Assembly (NCBI RefSeq): GCF_013408535.1
Contig: NZ_JACBZA010000001.1
Span: 5,726,850-5,790,849 of the forward strand
DNA from: Actinopolymorpha cephalotaxi
Lineage (GTDB): Bacteria > Actinomycetota > Actinomycetes > Propionibacteriales > Actinopolymorphaceae
Direction: 5' to 3'
DNA: 64,000 bases
Below the pieces are notes generated by a model. That model had not been told where the DNA came from. It saw nothing but the letters and a program-made list of their open reading frames with translations, and did no database searches. The position numbers and the translations under genes are program-made. This document shows, one piece after another, positions 28,954 through 42,402 of this stretch; within the stretch, counting starts at the first letter, position 1, and every line of letters begins with the position of its first letter.

Positions 28954-29529
28954 TCAGATGTCGGCGCGGTGGAAATTCCGGTACGACCTGGACGGAGTCG
29001 GGCCGCGCTGGTCCTGGTATCGGGAGCCGTAGCGCTCGGAGCCGTAGGGCTGCTCCGCCGGCGAGCTGAGCCGGAAGAAACACAGCTGGCCGATCTTCAT
29101 CCCGGGCCAGAGCTTGATCGGCAGCGTGGCGACGTTGGACAGCTCGAGCGTCACGTGCCCGGAGAAGCCGGGGTCGATCCAGCCCGCCGTGGAGTGCGTG
29201 AGCAGGCCGAGCCGGCCGAGGCTGGACTTGCCCTCCAGCCGGGCGGCGACGTCGTCGGGCAGCGTGATCACTTCGTACGTCGAGGCCAGCACGAACTCGC
29301 CCGGGTGCAGGATGAACGCCTCGCCCTTCTCGCACTCGACCTGGCGGGTCAGGTCGGGCTGCTCCTCGGCCGGGTCGATGTGGGGGTATCGGTGGTTCTC
29401 GAACACCCGGAAGTAGCGGTCCATGCGTACGTCCACACTGGACGGCTGGACGAACTCGGGCTCGAACGGGTCGAGGACCACCCGGCCCTTGTCGAGCTCG
29501 ATGCGGATGTCGCGGTCGGAGAGCAGCAC
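28954..29529 (-). CDS. dcd: dCTP deaminase
   Basis: 191-residue trimeric enzyme of the dCTP deaminase/dUTPase family. [12 protein letters not shown] start, [49 protein letters not shown] (active-site loop with catalytic Glu) and [11 protein letters not shown]. In many actinobacteria this enzyme is bifunctional, making dUMP directly from dCTP; that cannot be decided here. Adjacent to and divergent from tRNA-Gly. Confidence 0.96.
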
Positions 29530-29654: not shown

Positions 29655-29728
29655 GCGGGTGTAGTTCAATGGCAGAACATCAGCTTCCCAAGCTGACAGT
29701 GCGGGTTCGATTCCCGTCACCCGCTCCA
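29655..29728 (+). tRNA. tRNA-Gly (anticodon CCC)
   Basis: Full cloverleaf: acceptor GCGGGTG paired with CACCCGC, D arm with GTTCAATGGCAGAAC, anticodon stem around the loop TTCCCAA (anticodon CCC), T arm GCGGGTTCGATTCCCGT, discriminator T at 29725 and CCA encoded at 29726-29728. Its last 45 bp are repeated at 31290 and 32455, which marks it as an integration site. Confidence 0.97.
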
Positions 29729-29729
29729 C
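29685..29729 (+). repeat. attachment-site repeat copy 1 (inside tRNA-Gly)
   Basis: 45-bp block from the anticodon loop to the encoded CCA plus one base. Identical to copy 3 at 32455-32499 and one base different from copy 2. Integrating elements commonly use this half of a tRNA gene as attB. Confidence 0.9.
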
Positions 29730-29744
29730 AGCACCAACCACGAC

Positions 29745-29787
29745 AAAGCCCCAGGTCAGGGACCATGATCCCTCCGCCTCGGGCTTT
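29745..29787 (+). terminator. Terminator downstream of tRNA-Gly
   Basis: AAAGCCC (29745-29751) pairs with GGGCTTT (29781-29787); an inner AGGGA/TCCCT stem lies between. A closely similar element without a tRNA occurs at 36181-36225. Confidence 0.75.
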
Positions 29788-29841
29788 CCCACATCTACAG
29801 CCTCTGCTACCAGAAGCGGTCCGTGTGCCATCCACGTGCCA

Positions 29842-30036
29842 TTAGCCCGCGCCGGTGAGGCTGGTTCCGGAGCCGTCGTCACTGTCTCCACCCAGGTTGG
29901 TCAGACACACCCGAGCGGCCCGCACCCGCGCGTCGACGGCAGCCGCGATCGCCTCATCCGCTCCCCTCGTCCGGTGCTGGTAGATCAGCGCCGCCCGCAT
30001 CGAGTCGTGCCCCATTCGGTTCATGAGATCGCGGAG
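29842..30036 (-). pseudogene. Tyrosine integrase, C-terminal remnant 1
   Basis: The last 65 or so codons of a tyrosine recombinase: LRDLMNRMGHDSMRAALIYQH holds the GH and nucleophilic Tyr boxes, followed by an acidic tail and TAA at 29842. The N-terminal domain and the R and K boxes are missing. The break is at about 30036, next to a 22-bp sequence (30066-30087) repeated at 33568. It lies 113 nt from the att copy in the tRNA, the usual place of an integrase gene in such elements. Confidence 0.85.
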
Positions 30037-30065
30037 CCGCGGAAGCTTACGGCCCCCTGGTCTCC

Positions 30066-30087
30066 CGACCCGATGCAGGACACCGGC
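30066..30087. repeat. 22-bp dispersed repeat, copy 1
   Basis: CGACCCGATGCAGGACACCG plus GC, found again in the same orientation at 33568-33589. Here it sits at the broken end of an integrase remnant; the other copy sits in the 3' part of a truncated lipoprotein reading frame. Confidence 0.8.
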
Positions 30088-30107
30088 CAAAGCCCGCCGG
30101 CCCTCCG

Positions 30108-31055
30108 CTAGTGGCGGTAGAGCGTCGGAACGATTTCTGACCAGATCGTGTCCAGGATGTCGGTGGTCGCCCCCTGGTAGTGCGAAGTGACCGTGATGCA
30201 TGCGGCGTGGTGGGGAAACACCACGCAGAACTGTCCGTAGATCCCGTCCATTCGCCAGGCACCGTCGCGGTCGCAAAGCCAGACGTGGCGGCCGTAGGTG
30301 GCGTTCTGTGGATGAGGTTCGGTCCCGCAGGTGGCCAGGTGTCCGTCGGTGCTGGTCGTGTCGGTCGTGAGCGCGGCCACGTACTCGGCGGAGACGAGCT
30401 GGCGGCCCTGGTAGCGGCCTCCGTCCAGCAGGGTCTGCCCGAGACGGGCGAGTTCGGCCGTTCGCAGGAACAGCCCGACGGCCCCGAGGGAGTAACCAAG
30501 AGGACACCGGTGCCATTGCGGGTTGGCGATCCCCAGCGGTGTGAAGAGTCGAGGGACCAGATAGTCGCGCAGGTCCATACCCGAGCAGGCATGGATGATT
30601 CTGCTCAGCACGTAGGTGCTGCCGCCGCGATATTGGAACAGCGTTCCCGGCGTGGCAGCCGGTTTCGTAGACAGGAAGTCCGCGGCCGGGTCGCCCGGAT
30701 GGTCAGCGTCCGGGTCGGGCCATCGCCAGCCCAGGCCGGAGGTCATGGTCAGCAGGTGGCGTATCGTGACCGCCTCGACGCTGGCACTGGCCGCGGCGGC
30801 GAGGCTCGGCAGGTGTCGCAGGACCGGATCGTCCACCTTGAGCAGCCCTTCGTCGGCGGCGATACCGACAGCGACCGAGGTGAACGTCTTCGACACCGAG
30901 AACACGTCGCGGCGGATGTCAGCGGCCCAGTGTCGCTCCACCGGGTCGCGCCCCTCCTGGTACACATGCACGCCATCAACGCCCAGACCCTGCGCAGCGG
31001 CGGCACGGCCAAAGCGCTCCACGCCTTCCAAGACCGCCACCGCTGGTAGCTTCAT
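30108..31055 (-). CDS. Serine hydrolase, beta-lactamase (class C-like) family
   Basis: 315 residues with the SxxK nucleophile motif in DVFSVSKTFTSVAVGIAADEG and ITIRHLL-type context (VTIRHLLTMTSGLGW). The usual YxN box is not obvious (FQYRGGSTYVLSRI stands in that position) and the KTG-like box is not clear, so activity on beta-lactams is not implied; relatives are esterases and D-aminopeptidases. No signal peptide with the start at 31055 (MKLPAVAVLEGVERFG). Lies between att copies 1 and 2 and is therefore probably cargo. Confidence 0.8.
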   Translation of the reverse strand: MKLPAVAVLEGVERFGRAAAAQGLGVDGVHVYQEGRDPVERHWAADIRRDVFSVSKTFTSVAVGIAADEGLLKVDDPVLRHLPSLAAAASASVEAVTIRHLLTMTSGLGWRWPDPDADHPGDPAADFLSTKPAATPGTLFQYRGGSTYVLSRIIHACSGMDLRDYLVPRLFTPLGIANPQWHRCPLGYSLGAVGLFLRTAELARLGQTLLDGGRYQGRQLVSAEYVAALTTDTTSTDGHLATCGTEPHPQNATYGRHVWLCDRDGAWRMDGIYGQFCVVFPHHAACITVTSHYQGATTDILDTIWSEIVPTLYRH

Positions 31056-31289
31056 GGCGCCCGACCTTAACTCACACGCCTTTGACCAAGCTGCCCGCTC
31101 CAGACGGGTAGGCACACCCAGCCGCTCGGTGTAGAAGTCGGTGTCCGTCGGTACGGATGCGGTGAACGGGCCGCAGCCGCTCGCCTGCGCCATCCGCGTG
31201 CCATTACGGCGGGCCAGGACCGAAGCATTCAGTCACTCCAGTCCGCCGATCCACGCCACCAGACCACGTACGCAGTTCGATCTCTGCGA
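31056..31289. other. Non-coding region before att copy 2
   Basis: No gene I can support. It includes CCATCCGCGTGCCATTA (31190-31206), one of five near-copies of the sequence that follows integrase stop codons in this region. It therefore looks like debris of an earlier element end. Confidence 0.5.
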
Positions 31290-31334
31290 TTCCCAAGCTG
31301 ACAGTGCGGGTTCGATTCCCGTCACCAGCTCCAC
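31290..31334 (+). repeat. attachment-site repeat copy 2 (tRNA-Gly 3' fragment)
   Basis: 45-bp direct repeat of the tRNA-Gly 3' half with a single change (A at 31327 instead of C). There is no 5' half, so it is not a tRNA gene. The 45 bp after it match those after copy 3. Confidence 0.9.
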
Positions 31335-31582
31335 CACAAAGGCCCAGACCAACCTCATGATCGGGAAGCCCGGGCCTTCGCAGTCAGCCACCATGAGCGC
31401 GTCACGGGCCATTAGCTCGCGCGGTCGACATCCTCAGCCGAGTCGCCATCGTCCGGGCCATCGCCGGTCGTCGACCAAGACCCCAGCGACCTGGAACACC
31501 TGACGACGAGGAGCACCAGACCCAAGGCCTCCCGAGCGCGGGCCGCGCAGGTCGTGATCATGCTGCCCGTTGAGCCCTTACG
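31335..31582. other. Terminator-like repeat and vestigial integrase end after att copy 2
   Basis: Contains ATGATCGGGAAGCCCGGGCC, shared with the region after copy 3, then CACGGGCCATTAG (31403-31415), in the same relative position as the stop codon of the two integrase remnants. Upstream of that TAA the frame encodes an acidic tail (GDGPDDGDSAEDV), but no recombinase motif survives. Confidence 0.5.
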
Positions 31583-32086
31583 CTAATGAAACAGAGCACC
31601 AAAAACCCCGGCCAGTAAAAGCGAGATCGATGGGGAATAGCGGGCTGCACGCCAAGCCACTGGCCGGCTCGAAATTCGAGCTGCCGCCATCCGGTCCGGA
31701 TGGAGCAAGAAAAACCGCACCAAGCCCAAGAGGATCATATAGAGGGGGAGCCACATGATCAGGACCAGACCAATCGCCCATAGCATCTCGGTATATCTAC
31801 CTTTGATGCTTGTTAGCCCAACCAGTATTCCGAGAACGGGCCCCGCCACGAGTGCAGCTCTTATCCACTGCAAGTACGCCAAACCCTCCAGGACCTCCGC
31901 GGCAGCGCTAGACGTTAGCTGGTCGAATTGTTTCGATCCAAGTTGAGAAATGATTGGGTCGGCAACTCGAGGCGGGGTTCCTACGAGACCGAATCTCAGA
32001 AACGGTTCCAAGTAGGGTTTCGACGCCTTTACCAACGGTGATTCCTCCAGCACTTCCGTCAAGTCACCTTCCCGGCGAGGTGCCAC
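31583..32086 (-). CDS. Predicted membrane protein of unknown function
   Basis: Up to 167 residues with two or three hydrophobic helices in the second half (AALVAGPVLGILVGLTSI and WAIGLVLIMWLPLYMILLGLV) and one at the C-terminus (SISLLLAGVFGALFH). Base composition is visibly lower in GC than in neighbours outside the region, in keeping with transfer. The GTG at 32086 overlaps the upstream gene by 28 nt without a clear ribosome binding site, so the start is uncertain. Confidence 0.55.
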   Translation of the reverse strand: MAPRREGDLTEVLEESPLVKASKPYLEPFLRFGLVGTPPRVADPIISQLGSKQFDQLTSSAAAEVLEGLAYLQWIRAALVAGPVLGILVGLTSIKGRYTEMLWAIGLVLIMWLPLYMILLGLVRFFLLHPDRMAAARISSRPVAWRAARYSPSISLLLAGVFGALFH

Positions 32087-32277
32087 ATGAACAGACCGAA
32101 GAGGATTGCGGCCACGCCGCCCACGCGCGTAAGCATGTGGGACGCATCGCTCGGCTCGTTGGCTTCAGGGTGTCGATACTGCCAACTCGATAGCAGCTGC
32201 CACTGGGAGCGCGGGGCGATCACAGACCACACAGCCAAGGCAAAGAACACCACCAGGAACGCCCGCATGAACAGCAT
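32059..32277 (-). CDS. DUF6199-like small membrane protein
   Basis: 72 residues: N-terminal helix MLFMRAFLVVFFALAVWSVI, the signature WQYRHPEANEPSDASHMLTRVGG, and a C-terminal helix. The WQY(R/K)xPEANEPS motif is what I associate with DUF6199. The ATG at 32277 is chosen because GGAGGG precedes it. Overlaps the next gene. Function unknown. Confidence 0.7.
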   Translation of the reverse strand: MLFMRAFLVVFFALAVWSVIAPRSQWQLLSSWQYRHPEANEPSDASHMLTRVGGVAAILFGLFMWHLAGKVT

Positions 32278-32454
32278 GAGCCCTCCGCACGTCGGTGCTC
32301 GAAGCGTAAGCCATGATCGTCCTCCGAGGAGACGTTCCAAGGTTCCCGCCGGGCCATCCACGGGCCATTAGCCGAGGTCTCCGGCGGTCACTCCAGGACA
32401 CTCGCGGCCGATCATCCGGGCGTGGGACCGTCCACAGGACCCGTAGACGTACGT
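32278..32454. other. Non-coding region before att copy 3
   Basis: No gene. It carries CCATCCACGGGCCATTAG (32354-32371), another copy of the integrase-stop motif, 84 bp before att copy 3, as also seen before copy 2. Confidence 0.5.
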
Positions 32455-32499
32455 TTCCCAAGCTGACAGTGCGGGTTCGATTCCCGTCACCCGCTCCAC
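32455..32499 (+). repeat. attachment-site repeat copy 3 (tRNA-Gly 3' fragment)
   Basis: 45 bp identical to the tRNA-Gly 3' half at 29685-29729. No tRNA 5' half upstream. An integrase remnant begins 87 bp further on. Confidence 0.92.
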
Positions 32500-32586
32500 C
32501 ACAAAGGCCAGGCCAACCCCATGATCGGGAAGCCCGGGCCTTCGTCATGCCGCCGCTCGAAGCTCTGGCGTGCTATCTCCGTGCTA

Positions 32587-32880
32587 TTAGCCCGCATCGC
32601 CCCGGCTCCGTTTGTCCTCCCTCGGCGCGACGTCTCGTGCGATCTGTGCCGCGATCGCGTCCGCGATGGCACGGTCGGCATCACGGGTGACGTGCTGGTA
32701 GATCAGCGCCGCCCGCATGCTGTCGCGGCCCATCCGCGCCACCAGATCTCGCAGCGTCGCCCCCAGCGTCTGGGCCGCGAGGACGTTCCCCGTGTGGCGA
32801 AGATCGTGAAAGTGCAGACCCGGCAGACCGAGGTCCGCGACGGTCTTCGCAGCCGCCCGGCCGCGCGGACCCGTCACCAC
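32587..32880 (-). pseudogene. Tyrosine integrase, C-terminal remnant 2
   Basis: About 97 codons survive: VVTGPRGRAA, then GLHFHDLRHTGNVLAAQ (the HxxR box), LVARMGRDSMRAALIYQHV (GH box changed to GR, catalytic Tyr present) and a charged tail ending at TAA 32587. The segment between the TGPRG strand and GLHFHD is shortened, and everything N-terminal is gone, so it cannot be active. It is homologous to remnant 1. Confidence 0.87.
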
Positions 32881-33188
32881 CAGCGGGAGCATCGGCAGTA
32901 TGTGACCGCGTACACAGCCAGGCATCCGACAGTGGCAGCCGTCACAACCGAAGCCGTCGCCAGGCGACGATGCCGAACCCGCACGCCCCGTCGCGACGCA
33001 CGAAGCCACTCGACGCAGCCGTAGCCAGCCAGAAGCAGCCCCGGCACAGCCACCGCGACCGTGAGCGCTGGAGCCGCTACGAGGCCAAGGCCCACAAGCG
33101 CGACCAGGCCACACGCAGCAAGCCTGACCGCCGCCTCGCCTAGCCCGTCCAGGACCCGCTCGCCGGCGAACACGAACCACGCCAACAT
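32874..33188 (-). CDS. Predicted small membrane protein
   Basis: 104 residues with three hydrophobic segments (LAACGLVALVGLGLV, LTVAVAVPGLLLAGY, SVVTAATVGCLAVYAVTY) and an Arg-rich loop. The ATG at 33188 is preceded by GGTGGAG. Its 3' end abuts and slightly overlaps the broken end of integrase remnant 2, so its C-terminus (CRCSRWW) may be altered by that junction. Function unknown. Confidence 0.5.
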   Translation of the reverse strand: MLAWFVFAGERVLDGLGEAAVRLAACGLVALVGLGLVAAPALTVAVAVPGLLLAGYGCVEWLRASRRGVRVRHRRLATASVVTAATVGCLAVYAVTYCRCSRWW

Positions 33189-33328
33189 CCGGGAATCTCC
33201 ACCGGGAGCGCGGTGCCTCATAGCCGAGAAGTTGACACGTGGAACCGCGCGCTTGCAAGTGACCCTCCCCGTCCTCCTCGCAAGCCACAGTTCCGTTGGC
33301 GTCGTTCTGTCGCCATTACCCTCACCGC

Positions 33329-33592
33329 ATGCGCTGGCGTCTGGCGATGTACGCAGTGGCCATCACGGTCCTCACGGCAGGTTGTTCGGTGGTCGACAAC
33401 GGGCTTCGCCCACTCCCCACACAGCGGAGTTCCGATCCGGAAGGCGCACCCGAAGGCAGTCGCCGCGACCTACCTGACACCCGTTGTGGCAACGGCGCTG
33501 AGCCTGCTGCTGGGAATCGTCGCCCACTGATGCCACGTTCGCCCCTGCATCGACAATTCCGGCTCCGCGACCCGATGCAGGACACCGGCTAA
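33329..33592 (+). pseudogene. Truncated lipoprotein gene
   Basis: A believable lipoprotein signal, MRWRLAMYAVAITVLTAGCS (lipobox LTAGC), followed by about 65 residues without recognisable domain. The 3' part runs through the 22-bp dispersed repeat (33568-33589) and stops there, so the original C-terminus is probably lost. A different frame at about 33440-33530 encodes a membrane-helix-like stretch (YLTPVVATALSLLLGIVAH), so a frameshift is also possible. Confidence 0.4.
33568..33589. repeat. 22-bp dispersed repeat, copy 2
   Basis: Same sequence and orientation as 30066-30087. A short inverted partner, CCTGCATCG (33544-33552), lies 20 bp before CGATGCAGG within it. Confidence 0.8.
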
Positions 33593-33632
33593 ACCCTGTC
33601 GGTCCTTCCACTCCGACTGACAAGATCGGCTT

Positions 33633-34364
33633 GTGGCTGGTGGAGGAGGTGGTGGTGGTCGCGGCCAACCCGACGAGCACCAGACCGAGACCGAAAAGCT
33701 CTACGAGAAACTGCTCGAGGGCGTTCCGCCGCGAACCCGCATGTGGGTAGCTCCGGGCTTCGTCTGCGTGATCGTCGGGCTGATCGCGGCCGGAGTTCTC
33801 GCCGGGGTCCAAGCCGTGGCCGACCATCCCTTGATTGTTGGTCCGGTCACTGTCTTGTACTGGCCGGTCGCCTTCACTTGGGCACGGCGAAGGAGCGGCG
33901 CGGATGCCAACGCCTCACCCGAGGACAGCCAGGTTCGTCCCCAGGATCGAATGCGGGTCTGGGCCGTCGTGGCGGCCACGGCGGTGCTCGCCGGGTTCGG
34001 CGGATGGCTGGGCCTGGTACGGGCCCAGGCCGTAGAACGTAGCGGAGCGCGGGCTGTCGGAGTCCTCGTACGCGTCCAGGACGACGCCCCCGACGGGTCG
34101 ACGCTGACGGTACGGTTCGCGCCGGCCGGCAGCGGGACGCCGGAGCAGTTCCAGCAGGTCGTGTTCGACGCGTTCGATGACCGGCGCGGCAACCGAGTGA
34201 ACGTCGCCTACGACCCGGCCAATCCTCGACACGCACGAGTGGTCGGACGATGGCCCTCCGCAGCGGACGTACTGATCCCGGCCGGCGTCATCGGCGGAGC
34301 GATCTCGCTCTTCGCCCTCGCTTTCAACGCTGCCGCGACTCGCAAAGCACGCGATCAGCAGTGA
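33633..34364 (+). CDS. DUF3592-like membrane protein
   Basis: 243 residues. Gly-rich N-terminus, two helices at about 40-75 (APGFVCVIVGLIAAGVLAG and LIVGPVTVLYWPVAFTWA), one at about 107-128, a beta-rich domain with VRFAPAGSGTPEQFQQVVF and VNVAYDPANPRHARV, and a C-terminal helix. V.YDP.NP is typical of DUF3592 domains. The GTG start lacks a strong ribosome binding site. A second protein with the same domain type lies at 35593 on the other strand. Function unknown. Confidence 0.65.
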   Translation: MAGGGGGGGRGQPDEHQTETEKLYEKLLEGVPPRTRMWVAPGFVCVIVGLIAAGVLAGVQAVADHPLIVGPVTVLYWPVAFTWARRRSGADANASPEDSQVRPQDRMRVWAVVAATAVLAGFGGWLGLVRAQAVERSGARAVGVLVRVQDDAPDGSTLTVRFAPAGSGTPEQFQQVVFDAFDDRRGNRVNVAYDPANPRHARVVGRWPSAADVLIPAGVIGGAISLFALAFNAAATRKARDQQ

Positions 34365-34540
34365 CCGCTCGCCGGCATGGCGATCGACCGCCATCCCGTG
34401 TCCCTCGACTTGCCCCGACCCGCCGCCATTCGTTGCCGACAAGAGGACTGGATGATCAAGAACTGCTCCGGTCGCTTCGGCGGCAGACGGATCCGGTGGT
34501 CATCGGCAGGAACGGTGTACGTACGTGCCCGAGGGATATC

Positions 34541-34972
34541 GTGCGCGGCATGGCGCTCGTCCTCCGCCCGTTGGCAGCGAATCGGCTGGCCAATGGCTTG
34601 CCGGGCCTGTGCGTGGTCGGCGTTGCCGTAGGAGTGTTCGTGGAGTTCGGGTCGACGCCGTTGGGGCTGATCATCGCTACCGCGTGCGCGTCCGGTGGTC
34701 TCCTGTTGGCCGTCCGGGGCTACCGAAGCGGCGTCCTTTGCGATCGAGGCACTGCGACGGTCCGTGGCCTCCTGAGGACCAGGACGATCGCCCGATCGCA
34801 CATCGTGGAGGTCACCGACTTCCCAGCCATACGCTGGCGGACGGAGGCTGGGAGACCGCGCTGGACCCCGATCATCGCGCTCATGGCCGACAATCGGGAG
34901 CTGGCCTACTTCAGGAACCACAAGCTGCGCTCCCTTAGCCAACTTCGTCGGTGGGCGCGGAGACGCCGCTAA
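34541..34972 (+). CDS. Membrane protein with PH-like C-terminal domain
   Basis: 143 residues: two N-terminal helices (LPGLCVVGVAVGVFVEFG, GLIIATACASGGLLLAV) then a soluble region with GTATVRGLLRTRTIARSHIVEVTDFPAIRW, the pattern of bacterial PH-like domains in actinomycete membrane proteins. The GTG at 34541 (VRGMALVLRP) follows GAGGG; the ATG three codons later is the alternative. Function unknown. Confidence 0.6.
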   Translation: MRGMALVLRPLAANRLANGLPGLCVVGVAVGVFVEFGSTPLGLIIATACASGGLLLAVRGYRSGVLCDRGTATVRGLLRTRTIARSHIVEVTDFPAIRWRTEAGRPRWTPIIALMADNRELAYFRNHKLRSLSQLRRWARRRR

Positions 34973-35109
34973 GGATGCCCATCAGCTGAACGGATCCCTC
35001 AAGTCCCCGGACGGCTGTAACGCAAGGCGCCACTGACACGGCGCGGCCGCCCGGCCGCCCGGCGGGCGTATGAACAGCGCACTGTCGCTGCGGCCGGTAG
35101 GTTCGGGCG

Positions 35110-35432
35110 GTGCCCTGGTACTGCCTCCCGATCATGTGGCTCGGTGCGACTGTGATCTGCGCTCAGGTCCTGCTTGTGGGTAGCCGCCAACGTTCCTTAC
35201 GCCAACGGCTCGGCGAGATCGGACAGGGCGGGGATGCATGGGGGCTTGCCCTCGTCGCCGTCATCGCGGGTGGCGTGATCGGAGCGACGGCAGGCGCCGC
35301 CGGACCGGGCGTGGGGACAGTGCCGCAGTCGGCATGGGCGTAGGCCTCCTGGCCTGGACCATCGGGGTCGCCGTGGCCCTCATCTCGTCCAACCGCGACA
35401 CCAGCGGTGGCGACCACCGGGCCAACGAATGA
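35110..35432 (+). pseudogene. Small membrane protein gene, probably frameshifted
   Basis: The frame from GTG 35110 encodes a membrane protein start (MPWYCLPIMWLGATVICAQV...LALVAVIAGGVIGATAG) and stops at 35343. A neighbouring frame over about 35310-35432 encodes another good helix, GMGVGLLAWTIGVAVALISS, and a hydrophilic tail to a stop at 35432. Joining them needs one shift around 35310-35330. Either the gene is broken, the assembly has an indel, or the two reading frames are unrelated. Confidence 0.45.
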
Positions 35433-35592
35433 CGTTCCCGCCCCGTTCTCCTCGCAGGCCGGCCTGGCTGGTTGCGAAGAACGCCACCTGCTGGTGGAGA
35501 CCAGGTATGTGCCGGCAGCGCGCCGAGAGCACTACGCCGATGACGGTGAGCCAGGCGGCGAAGGACGAAGCGGTTCCCACGAAGCGTCGACC

Positions 35593-36081
35593 CTAGTCGT
35601 CCGCGTCCGCATGCGCCCGCGAAGATCGGCCGTGGGATCGGTGCCGCGCCGTGCGGTCCGGGCGCAAATCCCACAGGGCGAAGGCCGCCGAGACAACGGC
35701 GCCGCCACCGAAGACCGCCGGCCCGAGGTAGTCGCCACCCCACCGAACGTCCTGAAACATGGATGGGTCGTCGGGGTCGTAGACCACGCGGATCGGATCG
35801 CCCTTTCCTACGGGAGGGTCGTCGACGAAGTCGCCGGTCCAGTCCTCCACCTGGCGGCCGTCCTTGGTGGTGAAGCGCACCGTGATGCGCGGACCGTCAC
35901 TCCCTTTCCCCACCCAGTAGGGAGCACGCGTCCTGTCGAGGACCACCCCCTCCGCGATCTGGCCATGCGTAGCCAGGACGTACCTTGCATAGCCGAGAAC
36001 GATGGCAAGCGCGGCGAAGAGGGCAGCCGCCACCAAAGCTGGAATGACCGAGCGTGGAGCCCGTTGACCTCCGCTCCCCAT
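35593..36081 (-). CDS. DUF3592-like membrane protein
   Basis: 162 residues. A helix near the N-terminus (VIPALVAAALFAALAIVLGYARYVL), a soluble domain with GEVV/EGVVLDRT-type strands, ITVRFTTKDGRQVEDW and IRVVYDPDDPSMFQDV, then a second helix (GPAVFGGGAVVSAAFAL). The ATG at 36081 follows GGAGAGGAG; an open frame continues 16 codons upstream. Same domain family as the gene at 33633. Function unknown. Confidence 0.65.
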   Translation of the reverse strand: MGSGGQRAPRSVIPALVAAALFAALAIVLGYARYVLATHGQIAEGVVLDRTRAPYWVGKGSDGPRITVRFTTKDGRQVEDWTGDFVDDPPVGKGDPIRVVYDPDDPSMFQDVRWGGDYLGPAVFGGGAVVSAAFALWDLRPDRTARHRSHGRSSRAHADADD

Positions 36082-36180
36082 CCCGGGGTGCTCCTCTCCA
36101 TACAGTTCGGGCCGCGGATCCGACACCACGGCCCACGACCGGAGTATGCGCTACGTCGCCAACGTTCACCTGGCGCGCGA

Positions 36181-36225
36181 GAAGCCCCAGTCAGGGATCA
36201 TGATCCCTTCAGCCCCGGGGTTTTC
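36181..36225. terminator. Terminator-like element resembling the one after tRNA-Gly
   Basis: Outer GAAGCCCC/GGGGTTTTC arms and a perfect inner palindrome AGGGATCATGATCCCT (36193-36208). Nearly the same string follows tRNA-Gly at 29745-29787, yet no tRNA is here. It may be the distal scar of the accessory region. Confidence 0.6.
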
Positions 36226-36286
36226 TCATGACCGGCCGGGTCCCGGGTGGTAGCCGTTCGTCTCAGGTGAGTGGGATACTTCGCGG

Positions 36287-36469
36287 GTGAACGCGCCTCC
36301 TGACGGATTGCCGGTATACCGGGTGCTGACCGGTCCCGACGACGAGAAGTTCTGCCGCCGAGTGAGCGAAGCAGTAGCGCTTGGCTACCAGCTGTACGAG
36401 GGCCCTGCCGTCACCTTCAACGGTCAGGACGTCATCGTCGCCCAAGCGGTGATCTGGCCGACGCACTGA
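36287..36469 (+). CDS. DUF1737-like small protein
   Basis: 60 residues, starting GTG. YRVLTGPDDEKFCRRVSEAVALGYQLYEGPAVTF..VIVAQAVIW matches the DUF1737 pattern (a short beta-alpha-beta module with a G(Y/W)xL motif). Function unknown. Confidence 0.7.
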   Translation: MNAPPDGLPVYRVLTGPDDEKFCRRVSEAVALGYQLYEGPAVTFNGQDVIVAQAVIWPTH

Positions 36470-36540
36470 GGGCCCCGCGCTGTACGTGAGCAAGCTCGCG
36501 ACAGCACTCAGTCCGTGGCGGCCGACAGAAGCCTTCGAAG

Positions 36541-37521
36541 TCACCCGGACAAGGCTTCGGGATGGGCGAGAAGCCACTCGCTGAATTGCTGGAACGGTTG
36601 CGTCCGGCGAAGCCACTCGGCTGGATCTTTGTCGAGCCACGCACCAGCGGGAAAGAAGAGCATCACCGCAACCGTGTAGGGAGTCAGGGCTTGCCCTTCC
36701 TGGGCGGTAAGTTTCCATCCGGCAGCATTTTCGTATTCTTCGACAAAGCCTGCCACTCGCTCCCAGGGGACTGCGCTCGGCTCTACCGGCAACTCTTCGG
36801 CGTGCGTGAACACCGTCTGCCCGAAGGAGAAGGCCAGGTCATGGATGCGTGGCCTGTTGGCCGCGCAGGCGAAGTCGAGGTAGACAGTTTCCTCGCCTTG
36901 GGCTCTACCGACATTCTCCAGATTGATGTCACCGTGGACGATCTGACCCGGAAGCTCGGCAGTCGGAACCCACTGGCGACGCATCGTCTTGATGAGGTCA
37001 TGAAGAGTGTCGACGAGCCCGATCGCTTGGGAATCGACTCCCACAGCAGTCCGGGTGAGCGTCAACCAGCGCTGTAACGTGCTCGGCGCAGCGAAGAACG
37101 GCAGAACCGGACGCGGTATCACTGCATCAATATTCACGAGTGCGCGCTGCAGTTGGCCCATGGCCTGGAACATCCAGGGGTAGGAGTCCCAGGTCGGTTT
37201 CAGCTCCTCGTACGGCATGTATGGCTCAAGCTCCGCCCACGAGAACGCGCACCGCAAGGCCGCCGAACCCGCATGCGGAAGCGGCCTCGGCACCGCCAGA
37301 CCCATGTCGGCAAGCTGCCGCCGAACTTCCTGAACGGCTACGAGCCGACGGCGAGAGACATACTTCGGATGTATCCGCAGCACCAAGTCCTCGGTCCCGT
37401 CAGTCGCGCCATCCACGGGTCCCAGCCGAAGGTTTCTGCTCGTGAAACCGCCGAGCTCAATCACGGAACCACCAGGCACAATCTTCGCCGCCAGACGCTG
37501 CACATCCGAGTCGCCGGGCAT
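36541..37521 (-). CDS. Aminoglycoside phosphotransferase-like kinase (APH family)
   Basis: About 326 residues with the protein-kinase-like APH fold: VLRIHPKYVSRRRL (nucleotide Lys region), catalytic loop IVHGDINLENVG, and metal-binding VYLDFACAANRPRIHDLAFS. The loop has Asp in HGD and Asn in the expected places, so catalysis is plausible. The substrate is unknown; most such actinobacterial proteins are not resistance enzymes. The start could be ATG 37521, which follows AAGGCGG, or codons up to 37554. Confidence 0.8.
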   Translation of the reverse strand: MPGDSDVQRLAAKIVPGGSVIELGGFTSRNLRLGPVDGATDGTEDLVLRIHPKYVSRRRLVAVQEVRRQLADMGLAVPRPLPHAGSAALRCAFSWAELEPYMPYEELKPTWDSYPWMFQAMGQLQRALVNIDAVIPRPVLPFFAAPSTLQRWLTLTRTAVGVDSQAIGLVDTLHDLIKTMRRQWVPTAELPGQIVHGDINLENVGRAQGEETVYLDFACAANRPRIHDLAFSFGQTVFTHAEELPVEPSAVPWERVAGFVEEYENAAGWKLTAQEGQALTPYTVAVMLFFPAGAWLDKDPAEWLRRTQPFQQFSEWLLAHPEALSG

Positions 37522-37731
37522 GGCGAAACCGCCTTCGCGCACCGTCATGGGCACAGTCTCGGGGGAGGTCCCGGTTCACGTCCACAGACTTGTCAGGGGC
37601 CCAGACGTCGGACGCCACGTCACGGCCCACGGCCCAGTCAGATCGCGACGATAATCGAACACGACGATGCGGTCTGTGCCGCGGGCAGCGGCACATGCCG
37701 GCCGGCGGTGCCGCGCAGGAGGAGTGGACGG

Positions 37732-38232
37732 GTGACGAGCGAAGCATGGTGGACCACCCAGAAGGCTCAGGCGAGCATCCAGGCGATCGGCGACGCCGTG
37801 GCGCAGGAGTTCGGAGAGTCCAGTAAAGAGGACGAAGCCGGCCCGTTGTCGCGGGGATACGTCGGGACGAGTCTGGACCACGCGACGCAGACTGTGGTCG
37901 TGGTAGTCGACCCCGAGCTCGTCGACATGGAGCGGCTGACCGAGCGAATGTCCGCCGCCCCCGGCGTCAGTGGCATCCCTTTGCGCGTGGAGCCGAGCGC
38001 CTACACCTCGGCGGAGTTGCTCGAAGCGGGGGCGGTCGTCAGGAACCGCGCCTGGCATCCGCGGGCGGCGCAGGTGCCGTTCACCTCCTGGCTGGCCGCC
38101 GACTCACGCTTCGTCGTCACGCTGCGGCAGGAAGACGAAGACGTGGCCCGCGCGCTGACGGATCGGCTGGGCGACCGAGTACGCATCGAGCGGGGATCGC
38201 CCCGCCGAATGCCGAGACGTGCCCCTGGCTGA
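37732..38232 (+). CDS. Protein of unknown function (166 aa)
   Basis: GTG start after AGGAGG. The sequence alternates helices and strands: a helical N-terminus (WTTQKAQASIQAIGDAVAQEFG), GYVGTSLDHATQTVVVVVDPE, and a late segment FVVTLRQEDEDVARALTDRLGDRVRIERG. The strand-rich GTSLDHATQTVVVVV part faintly resembles protease prodomain modules, but there is no signal peptide or protease domain, so I make no functional claim. Confidence 0.6.
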   Translation: MTSEAWWTTQKAQASIQAIGDAVAQEFGESSKEDEAGPLSRGYVGTSLDHATQTVVVVVDPELVDMERLTERMSAAPGVSGIPLRVEPSAYTSAELLEAGAVVRNRAWHPRAAQVPFTSWLAADSRFVVTLRQEDEDVARALTDRLGDRVRIERGSPRRMPRRAPG

Positions 38233-38251
38233 GTGACAGAGCGATCTTGCG

Positions 38252-39037
38252 TCACGCAACGGCCAGGTTGAGAACGCCGCGATGCTGTTGGACGTACGCC
38301 AGGTCCCCGAGCATTCCGTCGCGATGCGTCCTCTCCTGCCACATCCTTGCCCAGCCCGGCTTGCCCGCCCTTCCCCAAGACTCGAGCGTGTCCAGTGCGC
38401 ACCGGATCCGCCGCTCGATCAGCTCCGGCAGACGGGCACGCTCGTCGGGGGTGAGTTCGTAGGCGTCGCAGAGGAGCCGGAGCCGGGTAGCGCGGTGTGT
38501 GACGTCGGTTGGCCAACCTCGCCCTGCCGAGTCGCCGTAGAACGGTACGAACCGCCAGGCTGCGTAGGCGACGTCCCACACCGGCGGGCCGGGGGCCGCC
38601 AAATCCCAGTCGAGGAAGGCGACGGGCACTCCGCCGTCGTACACCGTGTTGAACGGCGCCAAGTCGTTGTGGCAGATGACTTCGCCTTCAGCCGGTGCTC
38701 CCACCATCAGTTGCCACTCGGCGTCGACGGGTGGCCGAAAGCTGCGGCACAGGTCGTGGTAGCGGCGGATGAGGCGGCCGGCCTCGACCAGTGCGCGCTC
38801 CGACCAGACCCAGTCGGGGTCGCCGGAGCTGTCGGTCGATCCGTGGATGAAGGTCAGTACCTCCCGGCCCTGCTCGTCGAGACCGATCACTCGGGGAGCC
38901 GCTTCGAAGCCGTGAGCTTCGAGATGCCGGAGAAGCTGGTGAACGGCAGGCGTCCAGGCGCCGACAGGCCGGCGCACCGTGTCGCCCATACGGACAACAG
39001 GGCCGAGGTTCCCACCAGTGAGCGCTTCTTCTGGCAC
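38252..39037 (-). CDS. Aminoglycoside phosphotransferase-like kinase (APH family), second
   Basis: About 261 residues from the GTG at 39037; an ATG at 39094 is the alternative but would overlap the divergent padR promoter. Motifs: NLGPVVRMGDTVRRPVGAWTP, the HIND-type catalytic loop ICHNDLAPFNTVYDG, and VAFLDWDLAAPGPPVWDVAYAAW. Unlike the gene at 36541, this belongs to the subgroup that begins with a VVRVGDTVRRP strand. Substrate unknown. Confidence 0.83.
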   Translation of the reverse strand: MPEEALTGGNLGPVVRMGDTVRRPVGAWTPAVHQLLRHLEAHGFEAAPRVIGLDEQGREVLTFIHGSTDSSGDPDWVWSERALVEAGRLIRRYHDLCRSFRPPVDAEWQLMVGAPAEGEVICHNDLAPFNTVYDGGVPVAFLDWDLAAPGPPVWDVAYAAWRFVPFYGDSAGRGWPTDVTHRATRLRLLCDAYELTPDERARLPELIERRIRCALDTLESWGRAGKPGWARMWQERTHRDGMLGDLAYVQQHRGVLNLAVA

Positions 39038-39105
39038 AGCGCAATGGTACGAACCACTGTCGAGCGTTGACGTACGCCGACTTCGCAGCCGCAAGAACAG
39101 CCCTA

Positions 39106-39134
39106 TGGACCTGGCTATTCACTCGGTATATAGT
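39106..39134 (+). promoter_or_regulatory. Predicted padR promoter (leaderless)
   Basis: TGGACC (39106-39111), 17 nt, TATAGT (39129-39134), then seven bases to the ATG at 39142. The start of transcription would coincide with the start codon, and no ribosome binding site is present, so the mRNA is probably leaderless. Confidence 0.55.
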
Positions 39135-39141
39135 CCGCGGC

Positions 39142-39678
39142 ATGTCGATCCCTCGGACGCTGCTCGGACTGCTCGAGGATGAGCCGTCGTACGGCTACAC
39201 CCTGAAGCAGCGTTACGACGAGCTCTTCGCCCGCACCAAGAATCTCGCCTTCGGTCAGGTGTACTCCACGCTCGCGAGGCTCGAACGCGACGGCTTCGCA
39301 TCAGTTGTCGGGGTCGAGTCCGGTGAGGGACCGGAGCGGCGCCGCTATGCGATCACCGACGACGGCGTGGTCGAACTCGACACCTGGATCCGCACGCCCG
39401 AGCCGGCCACCTCGTTCGCGCAGAGCGTGCTGTTCGTCAAGACGACGCTGGCACTGCTGTCGGGGCGTTCGCCGTCGGACGTTCTCGACGCACAGCGCAG
39501 GGTCCACCTGGCACGCATGCGCGAGCTCACGGCCTCGCGCGCGGAGTCGGACGACGTGCAACTGCTGGCGGTCGACTACGAGATCGCTCACCTCGACGCC
39601 GACCTGCGCTGGATCGAGGAGACCGGGCACCGTCTCGAGCAACGCCGTGGGAGCCGGCGGGCGAGGGGCCGGAGCTGA
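39142..39678 (+). CDS. PadR-family transcriptional regulator
   Basis: 178 residues. N-terminal winged helix MSIPRTLLGLLEDEPSYGYTLKQRYDE...LAFGQVYSTLARLERDGF..VVGVESGEGPERRRYAITDDG is the PadR pattern; the C-terminal half is a helical dimerisation domain with a charged tail. It precedes an ABC ATPase and permease in the same direction. In such sets PadR usually represses the transporter and is released by a drug or lipid-like ligand. Confidence 0.92.
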   Translation: MSIPRTLLGLLEDEPSYGYTLKQRYDELFARTKNLAFGQVYSTLARLERDGFASVVGVESGEGPERRRYAITDDGVVELDTWIRTPEPATSFAQSVLFVKTTLALLSGRSPSDVLDAQRRVHLARMRELTASRAESDDVQLLAVDYEIAHLDADLRWIEETGHRLEQRRGSRRARGRS

Positions 39679-39746
39679 ACGGGGCACTCGTAGCCCGTCA
39701 AGGCTGTGGTCCGACGCCGACCTAGAACAACCAACGGGGAGAACAG

Positions 39747-40427
39747 ATGAACTCGTCACGGGAACTACTCGGGGCCTCCGGGCTCCGGCTGTCGTTCGGC
39801 CTCACCACGGCTCTGGACGGCGCGTCGATCGTCGTCCAGCCTGGTGAGATCGTCGCTTTGATGGGGCCCTCCGGGGCGGGCAAGTCGACGCTCCTGCACT
39901 GCCTGGCAGGAATCCTGCGGCCGGACGACGGTGAGGTGTGGTTCGACGGAGAACGACTGGACACGATGTCCGACCGTGCCCGGAGTGCACACCGGCTCCG
40001 GCGGTTCGGCTTCGTCTTCCAGTTCGGCGACCTCGTTCCGGAGCTCACGCTGCGCGAGAACGTCCTCCTCCCCCTTCGCCTGCTGCGGGCGGGTTCGGAT
40101 GCGCTGGACCGGGCAGCCGAACTGCTCGACACCCTGGAGATCGACCGGGTTGCCGACCGGTTGGCGGCCGAGGTCGCGGGCGGCGAGGCCCAACGCGCCG
40201 CCGTGGCACGGGCGCTGGCCCACCAGCCGGCAGTGATCTTCGCGGACGAACCCACCGGCGCCCTCGACAGCGTGTCGGGTGAGGTCGTCCTGTCGACGCT
40301 GATCAGGCTCGCCCGCCAGCACGGCAGCAGCGTCATCCTGGTGACCCACGACAACCGGGTCGCTGCGCACGCCGACCGTGAAGTCGTCATGCGCGACGGG
40401 CGTCTCGCCGCGGGGGTGGCAGCATGA
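39747..40427 (+). CDS. ABC exporter ATP-binding protein (MacB/LolD type)
   Basis: 226 residues. Walker A GPSGAGKST, Q-loop FVFQFGDLVPELT, signature VAGGEAQRAAVARAL, Walker B VIFADEPTGALDS, H-loop VTHD. ADEPTGALD is typical of the type VII (MacB/FtsE/LolD) ATPases. GGGGAGA precedes the ATG. Its stop overlaps the permease start (ATGA), and padR is 68 nt upstream. Confidence 0.94.
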   Translation: MNSSRELLGASGLRLSFGLTTALDGASIVVQPGEIVALMGPSGAGKSTLLHCLAGILRPDDGEVWFDGERLDTMSDRARSAHRLRRFGFVFQFGDLVPELTLRENVLLPLRLLRAGSDALDRAAELLDTLEIDRVADRLAAEVAGGEAQRAAVARALAHQPAVIFADEPTGALDSVSGEVVLSTLIRLARQHGSSVILVTHDNRVAAHADREVVMRDGRLAAGVAA

Positions 40428-42358
40428 CGCCGACGATCGTCCTCGGGCTCCGCCTCGCGAGGGGCATCGGAGTCAGCGGCCGGCTACGGGCCAGCCTCGT
40501 CGTCGCGGCGACCGGCGTCGCCTCCCTCGTCCTGCTCGCAACCGTCACCCTGATTCAGGTCGGCGTGGTCTCCTCTGGTGGGGGCCTGCGTCCCGAGGAC
40601 CAGGTGCTCTACTCCGCGATCGCGGCCACCGTCGGCGTACCCGTCCTGCTGCTGCTCGCCTCCGTCACAAGGCTTTCCGTCTCGGTACGGGACCGGCGGT
40701 TGGCCGCCCTGCGGTTGCTCGGCCTCTCTCCCGGACAGACCCGGATGGTCGCCGCGACCGAGGCTGCCGTACTCGCGGTCGGAGGGCTTCTCCTCGGCGG
40801 ATGCGCGTTCTACGCCGTCTGGCCTTTCGCCGGCGAGCTTCTCGCCATCGGTCGCCGGTTCACGGCCGCGGACATCTATCCGACCGTGCCGCAGGTCCTC
40901 GCCGTCGCCATCGGCGTGCCGGTGCTGGCGGTCGTGGCCGCGCTCGCTCCCACGCGTGCGGTGACGGCCCGCCCGCTCGCCGTTCGACGAGGCGCTACGG
41001 CGAAAAGGCCGAGCCTGTTGCGCGTGGTGCCTGTTCTGGCCGGTGCGGCCCTGATGTCGTGGATGTTCACGAAGCCGCAGGAGGAGTTCGCGTCGCCTGA
41101 GGACCTGTCGGGATTCCAGCTCTTCCTCGTGGGAGCGATCCTGTCCGCCGTGGGCCTGGTCCTGGTGGTGCCCGTCCTGGTGCGTACTGTCGCCGAACTG
41201 CTGGCCCGGCTGACCCGCAGGTCCGTCGTCCTCGTGGCCAGCCGCAGGTTGCGGCAGGAGCCGGCGGCGACCACCCGCCTGGTGGCGGGCCTGCTTCTGG
41301 CGGTCTTCGTCGTCACCGGCGCCCGGTGTCTCCTCACCGCCTGGGAGCGGGATCCGGCGTACATCGAGGTCTCTCAGGCGGCCGCGACCGGCACGCAGGT
41401 GATCACCGTGACAGGTATGGGCCCCGCAGACGCTGCCGCCTCACTGCGCTCGCTGGCTGCCACGCCCGCGGTCCGCAAGGTCGTACCGGCCGACTTCCAC
41501 CAGGACCTGTGCGACGGCGACTACTGCTTCAACGTGTACGTCGGCACCTGCGCGGAACTCAGTCGGCTCCAACCGGTCTCCGGATGCCGAGACGACAGGA
41601 TTGCCTGGATCAACCCGACCGGCACGGACACCGATGCGGACCCAGCGCAGGATGCCCTCCCGCCACCAGGTACACCTCTTGTCCTCCAGCCCGAGAGCGG
41701 TTCGGCGAAGGTCGAGATCCAAGCTCCGTCCGCCCACATCCTCCCGTCCGGGGGTGATGGAAACGCCGTCCCGTATCTGGACTCGGCTGTCTTCCTGCCC
41801 AGGAGTGTTCCGGGGACTGCCGCCCTGGTGCCGCCGGCAGAGCGCAGCTACGTCATCTTCGCCGATGCAGGTGAAGAGAACGCGGACAGGGTTGTCGATG
41901 CGCTGCCGGCGATCGACTCGGCGGGCGTCTCCGTGATGGCACCCGACTACACGGCCTTCAAGCAAGTCAGCAACTACCGCCACATGCTGTGGGGTGTCAC
42001 CGGGGTCGTGGTGCTGACCGGCCTCGTGGCGTTCGGGATCGCGGCGATCGACAGGGCGCAGGAACGCCGCCGCGAGGTCGCCTCCCTGCACGTGCTCGGC
42101 GCTCCCGCGGGGCTCGTCCGGGGAAGCCAGCTGCTCCAGGCGCTGATCCCCCTCGGCATCGGCCTCCCGCTCGCGGGCGGGCTCGGCTTCCTTGCCGGCT
42201 CTGGCTACCTCGCGTTCGCCCAGCTCCGTGAGTACGCGCCCTGGCAGTCGGTCCTCACGCTCATGACGATCTCGTTGGCGGCGGCCGTTCTTGTCGCGGC
42301 CTCGTCCGTCGTCGCACTTGGTGCCGGTTTCAGCCCGGCCATGCTCCGGCGCGAGTAG
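40424..42358 (+). CDS. FtsX-like ABC permease
   Basis: 644-residue membrane protein with two FtsX-type halves, about eight to ten helices in all: helix at 20-45, three at 65-180, two around 205-260, then a large extracellular domain (about 300-510) that contains Cys pairs (DLCDGDYCFNVYVGTCAEL), then three C-terminal helices. It partners the ATPase upstream. Export of a peptide, lipid or drug, or mechanotransmission, is inferred from the family; the substrate is unknown. Confidence 0.9.
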   Translation: MTPTIVLGLRLARGIGVSGRLRASLVVAATGVASLVLLATVTLIQVGVVSSGGGLRPEDQVLYSAIAATVGVPVLLLLASVTRLSVSVRDRRLAALRLLGLSPGQTRMVAATEAAVLAVGGLLLGGCAFYAVWPFAGELLAIGRRFTAADIYPTVPQVLAVAIGVPVLAVVAALAPTRAVTARPLAVRRGATAKRPSLLRVVPVLAGAALMSWMFTKPQEEFASPEDLSGFQLFLVGAILSAVGLVLVVPVLVRTVAELLARLTRRSVVLVASRRLRQEPAATTRLVAGLLLAVFVVTGARCLLTAWERDPAYIEVSQAAATGTQVITVTGMGPADAAASLRSLAATPAVRKVVPADFHQDLCDGDYCFNVYVGTCAELSRLQPVSGCRDDRIAWINPTGTDTDADPAQDALPPPGTPLVLQPESGSAKVEIQAPSAHILPSGGDGNAVPYLDSAVFLPRSVPGTAALVPPAERSYVIFADAGEENADRVVDALPAIDSAGVSVMAPDYTAFKQVSNYRHMLWGVTGVVVLTGLVAFGIAAIDRAQERRREVASLHVLGAPAGLVRGSQLLQALIPLGIGLPLAGGLGFLAGSGYLAFAQLREYAPWQSVLTLMTISLAAAVLVAASSVVALGAGFSPAMLRRE

Positions 42359-42402
42359 GACGCCTGACTGGGAAAGGACGTCTCGATGCGCACAGCGAGC
42401 TG

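Follow-up and report, generated by a model that had tools for sequence, protein, structure and literature searches.

Actinomycete integrative and conjugative elements (AICEs) carry a gene set of Int, RepSA and an FtsK-like protein, as set out in parts of two accounts (PMC3364876, PMC3218068), and for one of them, pACPL, the excerpted description mentions repeats around the attP core that are said to resemble the arm-type sites of pSAM2 (PMC3364876). Sections of two papers report that AICEs have accumulated in tandem and decayed at tRNA-Arg and tRNA-Lys genes of Streptomyces and Frankia, with several elements or remnants lying between direct tRNA repeats (PMC9513070, PMC3218068). Arm repeats have also been described for phages: in cluster K mycobacteriophages, 11-bp repeat pairs differ between phages and N-terminal integrase residues 17 and 19 are candidates for recognition, according to part of that study (PMC3203893), and the excerpt of another places putative arm-type sites around phage cores (PMC10865867). 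Here we describe a tRNA-Gly(CCC) locus of Actinopolymorpha cephalotaxi, located in a 64,000-nucleotide stretch (the window: GCF_013408535.1, NZ_JACBZA010000001.1, positions 5,726,850 to 5,790,849) of a 6.86-Mb, single-contig genome. We are confident that at least three elements of the AICE kind form a tandem array at this locus, now decayed, and that their related lambda-type tyrosine integrases used the half of the tRNA from anticodon loop to 3' end and kept the tRNA intact.

The locus resembles the pSAM2/pACPL/pMR2 class in that Int lies next to the tRNA core; the two complete relatives tested encode an integrase together with RepSA, and one of them also an FtsK-like protein. It differs from that class in its target, tRNA-Gly(CCC), in its arm units, which are 8 bases long, repeat with a period of 11 bp and differ between elements, and in that the copies in the window have no rep, tra or complete int. 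It differs from the AICE accounts for tRNA-Arg and tRNA-Lys in that "arm-type" and "tRNA-Gly" are absent from both texts (PMC9513070, PMC3218068). The cluster K work compared few phages, and in K1, in the part of the text that covers it, the two pairs face opposite ways (PMC3203893), whereas here 85 integrases were compared, held-out data served to test a rule, and the pairs to either side of the core point one way. Tandem accretion and arm sites are thus of known kinds, and the family-wide residue-to-base rule is the part not found in print: neither this rule nor this tRNA-Gly array was found in the literature searched by title and start of abstract, with subscription papers outside that search.

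Results

Three tRNA-Gly cores delimit element remnants

ARAGORN found a single tRNA, Gly(CCC), which both ARAGORN and Rfam report as intact (coordinates in Table 1). Its 3' half recurs as three 45-bp cores, att1 to att3, in one orientation (+) and at spacings of 1605 and 1165 bp, exactly as a preliminary description of this DNA had reported; the distances of 112, 77 and 87 bp that it gave from core to TAA/TTA are likewise correct. No fourth core with three or fewer mismatches was found in a search with the last 25 bp. The layout is that of tandem accretion, with elements in direct order and tRNA 3' ends between them: three cores enclose two matched intervals, E1 (att1 to att2) and E2 (att2 to att3), and the end of a third element, E3, follows att3. 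Synteny with congeners returns on the right only at about 42.4 kb (G001), 42.7 kb (G004) and 45.9 kb (G002), so within the genus the DNA between the tRNA and these points varies.

A recurrent motif is a pair of predicted arm-type repeats

The motif YATCNNCGKGCYATTA occurs without mismatch at 29829, 31191, 32355 and 32574. Allowing one mismatch still gave four matches against 0.02 expected, and 0 of 100 shuffles reached four. Five copies had been claimed: four are complete and the one near 31403 is partial, with the quoted starts being one base too low. Integrase C-termini were said to follow the first and third cores (att1 and att3), and tblastn to relatives did recover fragments there (int1 and int3), ending at 29842 and 32587. 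The interpretation of the copies as old integrase ends, in contrast, did not hold up, since the same pairs stand at the far ends of elements and their offset from the integrase stop is not constant. Only three of the five copies lie on the integrase side of their element, and for the copies at 31191 and 32355 no integrase reading frame was found that ends there.

On the tRNA strand, each copy reads as two 8-base units with an 11-bp period, and both halves vary in concert between the elements of the window. Among 49 integrases at tRNA-Gly, the end of the pair lies 60-88 bp from the tRNA end (standard deviation 6.9), while its start varies between positions -104 and +295, counted from the integrase stop codon (standard deviation 74); the scan from the core reached no further than about 85 bp, and a few of the stops come from truncated or misread frames. 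This tight distance to the tRNA and loose distance to the stop indicate that the motif is tied to the core rather than to the end of the gene; in many elements the integrase gene is just long enough to reach into the arm pair. Around the stop at 132 loci of related integrases, the best tandem match was perfect (8/8 bases) in 35, of which 30 had a period of 11, compared with 7 of 660 shuffles. As expected of lambda-type systems, the flanks in the arrays carry repeats on both sides of the core and separate from it. On this sequence evidence, the motif is a pair of predicted arm-type, integrase-binding direct repeats that flanks each core at set distances.

Arm units pair the ends of elements

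In the window, the units tie att1 to att2 (GTGCCAT, E1) and att2 to att3 (GGGCCAT, E2), and E3 bears a third unit, GTGCTAT, past att3. The far end of E3 was not recovered: apart from E1's own pairs, the window has no second GTGCTAT pair (20-base pattern, three or fewer mismatches). Complete relatives behave in the same way, with one repeat type at both ends of an element and other repeats in other elements.

We compared 46 arrays with 71 core-to-core intervals, comprising the window, 31 arrays from records with a related integrase (44 records searched) and 14 from relatives in which the core occurs a second time. Across an interval, the flank to the right of the first core and the flank to the left of the second agreed in a tandem unit better than re-paired flanks did: the mean score was 26.5 of 32, compared with 24.3 when flanks were re-paired with those of other genomes, and none of 20000 permutations reached the true value. 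Other flanks within one array scored 23.4 of 32. Perfect 8/8 pairs were present in 35/71 left flanks (4/710 shuffles) and 32/117 right flanks (10/1170). Typically, arms lie +57 to +73 past the core or -102 to -127 ahead of it.

At least three cores were present in 15 of the 46 arrays, with a maximum of seven in Nonomuraea aurantiaca (L188, G215), where they span 13 kb and the left arms are of several types. The host genome has a second array, at tRNA-Gly(TCC) (G000:C1:1009835-1036627; L043, L044), with three cores in about 27 kb and the arm pair CGGGCCAC in its first flank. Other periods were also seen: the second interval in Micromonospora zingiberis (L196, L225; G202) is a 10.6-kb element with the unit TTGTTGGG, period 12, at both ends, perhaps representing another integrase family at the identical core, and L040 (G049) has CGTGGACT, period 10, at both ends and an integrase with a weak, below-cut-off match to the Lsr2 DNA-binding domain model. 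The idea that neighbours in an array avoid equal arm units was dropped, as adjacent typed left arms were equal in 2/8 cases compared with 148/929 pairs across arrays.

Remnants in the window

The two integrase stubs of the window are too short for Pfam. Ten window open reading frames (ORFs) were scanned and gave no RepSA or FtsK-like match, which is expected of remnants though not proof. The true start of the E1 PF00144 gene probably lies inside the called ORF. Its nearest relatives among 57 genomes (86% in G004, 62% in G005, 58% in G048) have neither a typical arm pair nor a tRNA within about 1.5 kb. At the E2-like integrase-side arm, the congener G002 has two units, and the alignment places a 12-bp gap in the window copy. 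A dispersed, hairpin-like repeat of about 110 bp is present as half copies at 30034-30107 and 33559-33608; it was found in 6/6 genomes of the genus searched (4 to 15 each) and 0/3 others of the order, and it matches no Rfam family.

Table 1. Features of the tRNA-Gly(CCC) locus, in window coordinates.
Feature	Position	Strand	Evidence
dCTP deaminase gene (dcd), precedes tRNA-Gly(CCC)	28954-29529		
tRNA-Gly(CCC), intact, insertion target	29655-29728	+	ARAGORN; Rfam RF00005, 72 bits
att1 core (tRNA 3' half starting at anticodon loop)	29685-29729	+	repeat comparison
Terminator-like hairpin between att1 core and arm pair	29745-29787	+	RNA fold z -3.9
E1 integrase-side arm pair, TGTGCCAT-N3-CGTGCCAT	29824-29842	+	
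E1 integrase C-terminal fragment (int1), TAA overlaps arm pair	29842-30069	-	tblastn to int3 and relatives' integrases
Half of genus-specific dispersed repeat, adjoins int1 fragment	30034-30107	+	
E1 cargo, beta-lactamase-fold gene (PF00144)	30108-31193	-	Pfam 1e-34
E1 far-end arm pair, TGCGCCAT-N3-CGTGCCAT	31186-31204	+	
att2 core, one mismatch (C to A)	31290-31334	+	repeat comparison
E2 integrase-side arm, one unit CGGGCCAT remaining	31405-31412	+	read from sequence
E2 cargo ORF, 167 aa, without Pfam family	31583-32086	-	
E2 cargo ORF, 100 aa, DUF6199	32059-32361	-	Pfam
E2 far-end arm pair, CGGGCCAT x2	32350-32368	+	
att3 core	32455-32499	+	repeat comparison
E3 integrase-side arm pair, CGTGCTAT x2	32569-32587	+	
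E3 integrase C-terminal fragment (int3)	32587-32850	-	tblastn
Variable region past E3, ending where congener synteny returns	32851-42400	.	

Complete relatives and the integrase N-terminal domain

Of 136 related integrase ORFs, 52 had a convergent tRNA-Gly no more than 700 bp away (47 CCC, 5 UCC), one was near a tRNA-Ala and 83 were near no tRNA. Complete relatives at the tRNA-Gly site mostly measure 8-18 kb from core to core. As in AICEs, a tyrosine integrase stands beside the core: in the window as C-terminal stubs, and in relatives complete. The full-length proteins belong to PF00589 and have the conserved R, HDLRH, G and Y positions in the alignment. Together with the arm repeats that pair element ends, these genomes support the earlier proposal that the tRNA-Gly site was used repeatedly and that the elements then decayed.

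Ahead of a SAM-like domain (PF14659) and PF00589, the relatives' integrases have a small N-terminal domain that is lost from the window stubs. It was modelled as a three-stranded sheet and a helix (strands 12-15, 21-26 and 32-39, helix 42-58; predicted local distance difference test score 82). The N-terminal domain of Tn916 integrase, also a three-stranded sheet with a helix, binds arm sites. The structural match between the two is weak: Foldseek gave no match to the model under E 0.001, and VIA-align reached Z 5.1 at most, with the AP2 domain (1gcc), compared with Z 3.6 for Tn916 integrase (root-mean-square deviation 1.9 over 46 residues). The arm domain of the HAI7 integrase was also among the weak matches.

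A residue-to-base rule links integrase and arm

With the catalytic domain controlled for, arm distance between integrases was correlated with N-domain distance (partial Mantel 0.38, permutation p 0.0005); with the N-domain controlled for, its correlation with the catalytic domain was weaker (0.14, p 0.003). Proteins shorter than 330 aa were left out of this set, as were L143, L159, L074 and L096, which have no clear pair. A rule was found on 47 integrases (63, reduced to 54 and then to 47 after 97% de-duplication), with residues numbered as in L033 and with the register of AATGGCCC, TCTGGTGC, TCTGGCAC, GCTAATCG and CCTAATCG moved by hand to a common frame. At unit positions 5-6, read on the integrase strand, L15/Q21 goes with CA, R15-E16/Q21 with CC and Y15/T21 with TG; at unit position 3, R23 goes with G. 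In the modelled N-domain, these residues are part of the first turn and of the second strand.

The rule was fixed before 60 further integrases were fetched as held-out cases, of which one was near the training set, two were duplicates, and 13 (loose) or 20 (strict) had no arm call. In the strict set, 36/37 were right and one had no prediction, and all seven cases not of the common type were among those right; guessing CA throughout would score 30/37. The three TG cases of this set are 94-95% identical to training rows, and the four CC cases 59-67%. In the loose set, 39/44 were right, three were wrong (L258, L285, L290) and two had no prediction. Over all 85 non-redundant integrases, the rule held in 84 (CC 9/9, TG 15/15, CA 60/61), a count that pools training and test and takes residue 15 as a single type when it is L, I or M; only L or I was named in the rule as fixed. 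R23 was accompanied by G at position 3 in 59/59 cases, and another residue 23 (with Q21) by T or C in 10/11.

Independent contrasts on the catalytic-part tree agreed with the rule for RE/CC (4/4), YT/TG (2/2) and R23/G3 (about 2.8/3), with none opposite, each set being too small for significance by itself. On this tree, L103 and L107 (R-E, CC) are grouped with L109 (L-P, CA) at full support: L109 (Salinispora pacifica) has K-L-P and the unit ATGGCACG, while L103 (Micromonospora craterilacus) has K-R-E and the unit ATGGCCCG.

Order of insertion and re-use of the site

The DNA beside the tRNA in congeners resembles different flanks of the array: that of G002 is like att2's (98/106), those of G004 (85/95) and G001 (67/70) are like att3's, that of G003 is weakly like att3's (77/97), and that of G005 shows no clear likeness to any. 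The neighbouring dcd-tRNA DNA is 92-96% alike for G001, G002 and G004, with 96% for G002 and 92% for G004, near the flank identities. The comparison suggests that the array grew at the tRNA side, with E3 and then E2 standing beside the tRNA and E1 arriving last. In the proposed course of events, an integrase would bind two arm units per side by its N-terminal beta-sheet domain while its catalytic part would cut in the core; E3 would have inserted first, then E2, then E1, each beside the tRNA; and the integrases would have been deleted afterwards, with cargo genes staying behind.

Typed arms are distributed unevenly: in inner intervals the right arm was typed in 0/25 and the left in 13/25, and in first intervals 29/46 and 31/46, respectively. 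Most first intervals had been picked for a complete integrase, and only the inner comparison is fair. With a looser criterion there are at least three inner right arms (G215 copy 3; G202 copy 2, period 12; G225 copy 2). Deletion of int that takes the neighbouring arm along explains the same asymmetry between right and left arms. A strict version, in which the site is re-used only after loss of the integrase-side arm, was rejected because att3 has a full right arm despite E2 and E1 before it.

In the G005 tRNA island (L232, 1363-15509), the roughly 14 kb past the tRNA contain eight arm pairs, with five or more unit types among them, and only one further clear partial core; arm pairs there outlast cores and integrases. 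A CGTGCTAT/CGTGCTGT pair in this island, at L232:11393, uses an E3 unit, which by itself does not identify it as E3.

Discussion

One alternative to arm sites is the reading under which the motif was first described, namely that it represents a 3' end conserved among decayed integrase genes. Both stubs in the window do have their TAA stop in the motif, and 11/49 relatives have the pair at the identical offset, -1. Yet the pair also stands at far ends that have no integrase end (31186 and 32350, and in relatives), the stop wanders while the distance to the tRNA is held, and both halves of the pair change together between elements, leaving this explanation very improbable. It is just as improbable that a single integrated element was broken up by deletions. 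The E2 and E3 flanks are indeed related in sequence just past the core; against this stand three different arm units, a matching pair of its own in each of E1 and E2, and two separate integrase stubs that differ in sequence.

Least probable of all, to the point of being nearly negligible, is that the cores are tRNA fragments copied by segmental duplication without site-specific recombination. Such copying would fit the near-identical cores and the want of a complete integrase. However, copies in most arrays begin near tRNA position 29-31 and stop at the tRNA end, matched arm pairs lie at set distances within intervals, and no long repeat joins the copies outside the flanks.

Several observations weigh against a tandem array of separate elements as we have drawn it. 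A flank's own partner was best or tied best among all flanks in only 26/71 intervals, which reflects unit types shared by different elements and the decayed state of many intervals. The E1 and E2 pairings pass by eye, yet their scores place them no higher than 4th and 3rd among the 71 left flanks, a result of identical units in other elements and of damage to the right arm of E2, half of which is gone; the top-scoring right-flank window of E2 is another GGGCCAT, 53 bp beyond the half arm at 31405. The E1 arm pair lies at +93 from its core, outside the usual 57-73. All window integrases are stubs, so their N-domains cannot be compared with their arms. E1 and E2 cargo had no nucleotide match in the tRNA islands of five congeners, where no intact E1 or E2 was found, and the likeness of congener flanks could stem from separate insertions of related elements.

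Taking the array together with the rule, we lean, with some reserve, towards a reading in which the rule reads the arms and elements that share one core and one tRNA keep separate addresses. These addresses would reveal the integrase kinds of dead elements: L15-type for E1 and E3, and R15-E16 type for E2. Inner elements would usually keep the far arm and lose the integrase-side arm, which may allow the site to be used again. Arm repeats allow element ends to be counted and paired once the integrases are gone, and the history of crowded tRNA sites thereby becomes readable from DNA alone.

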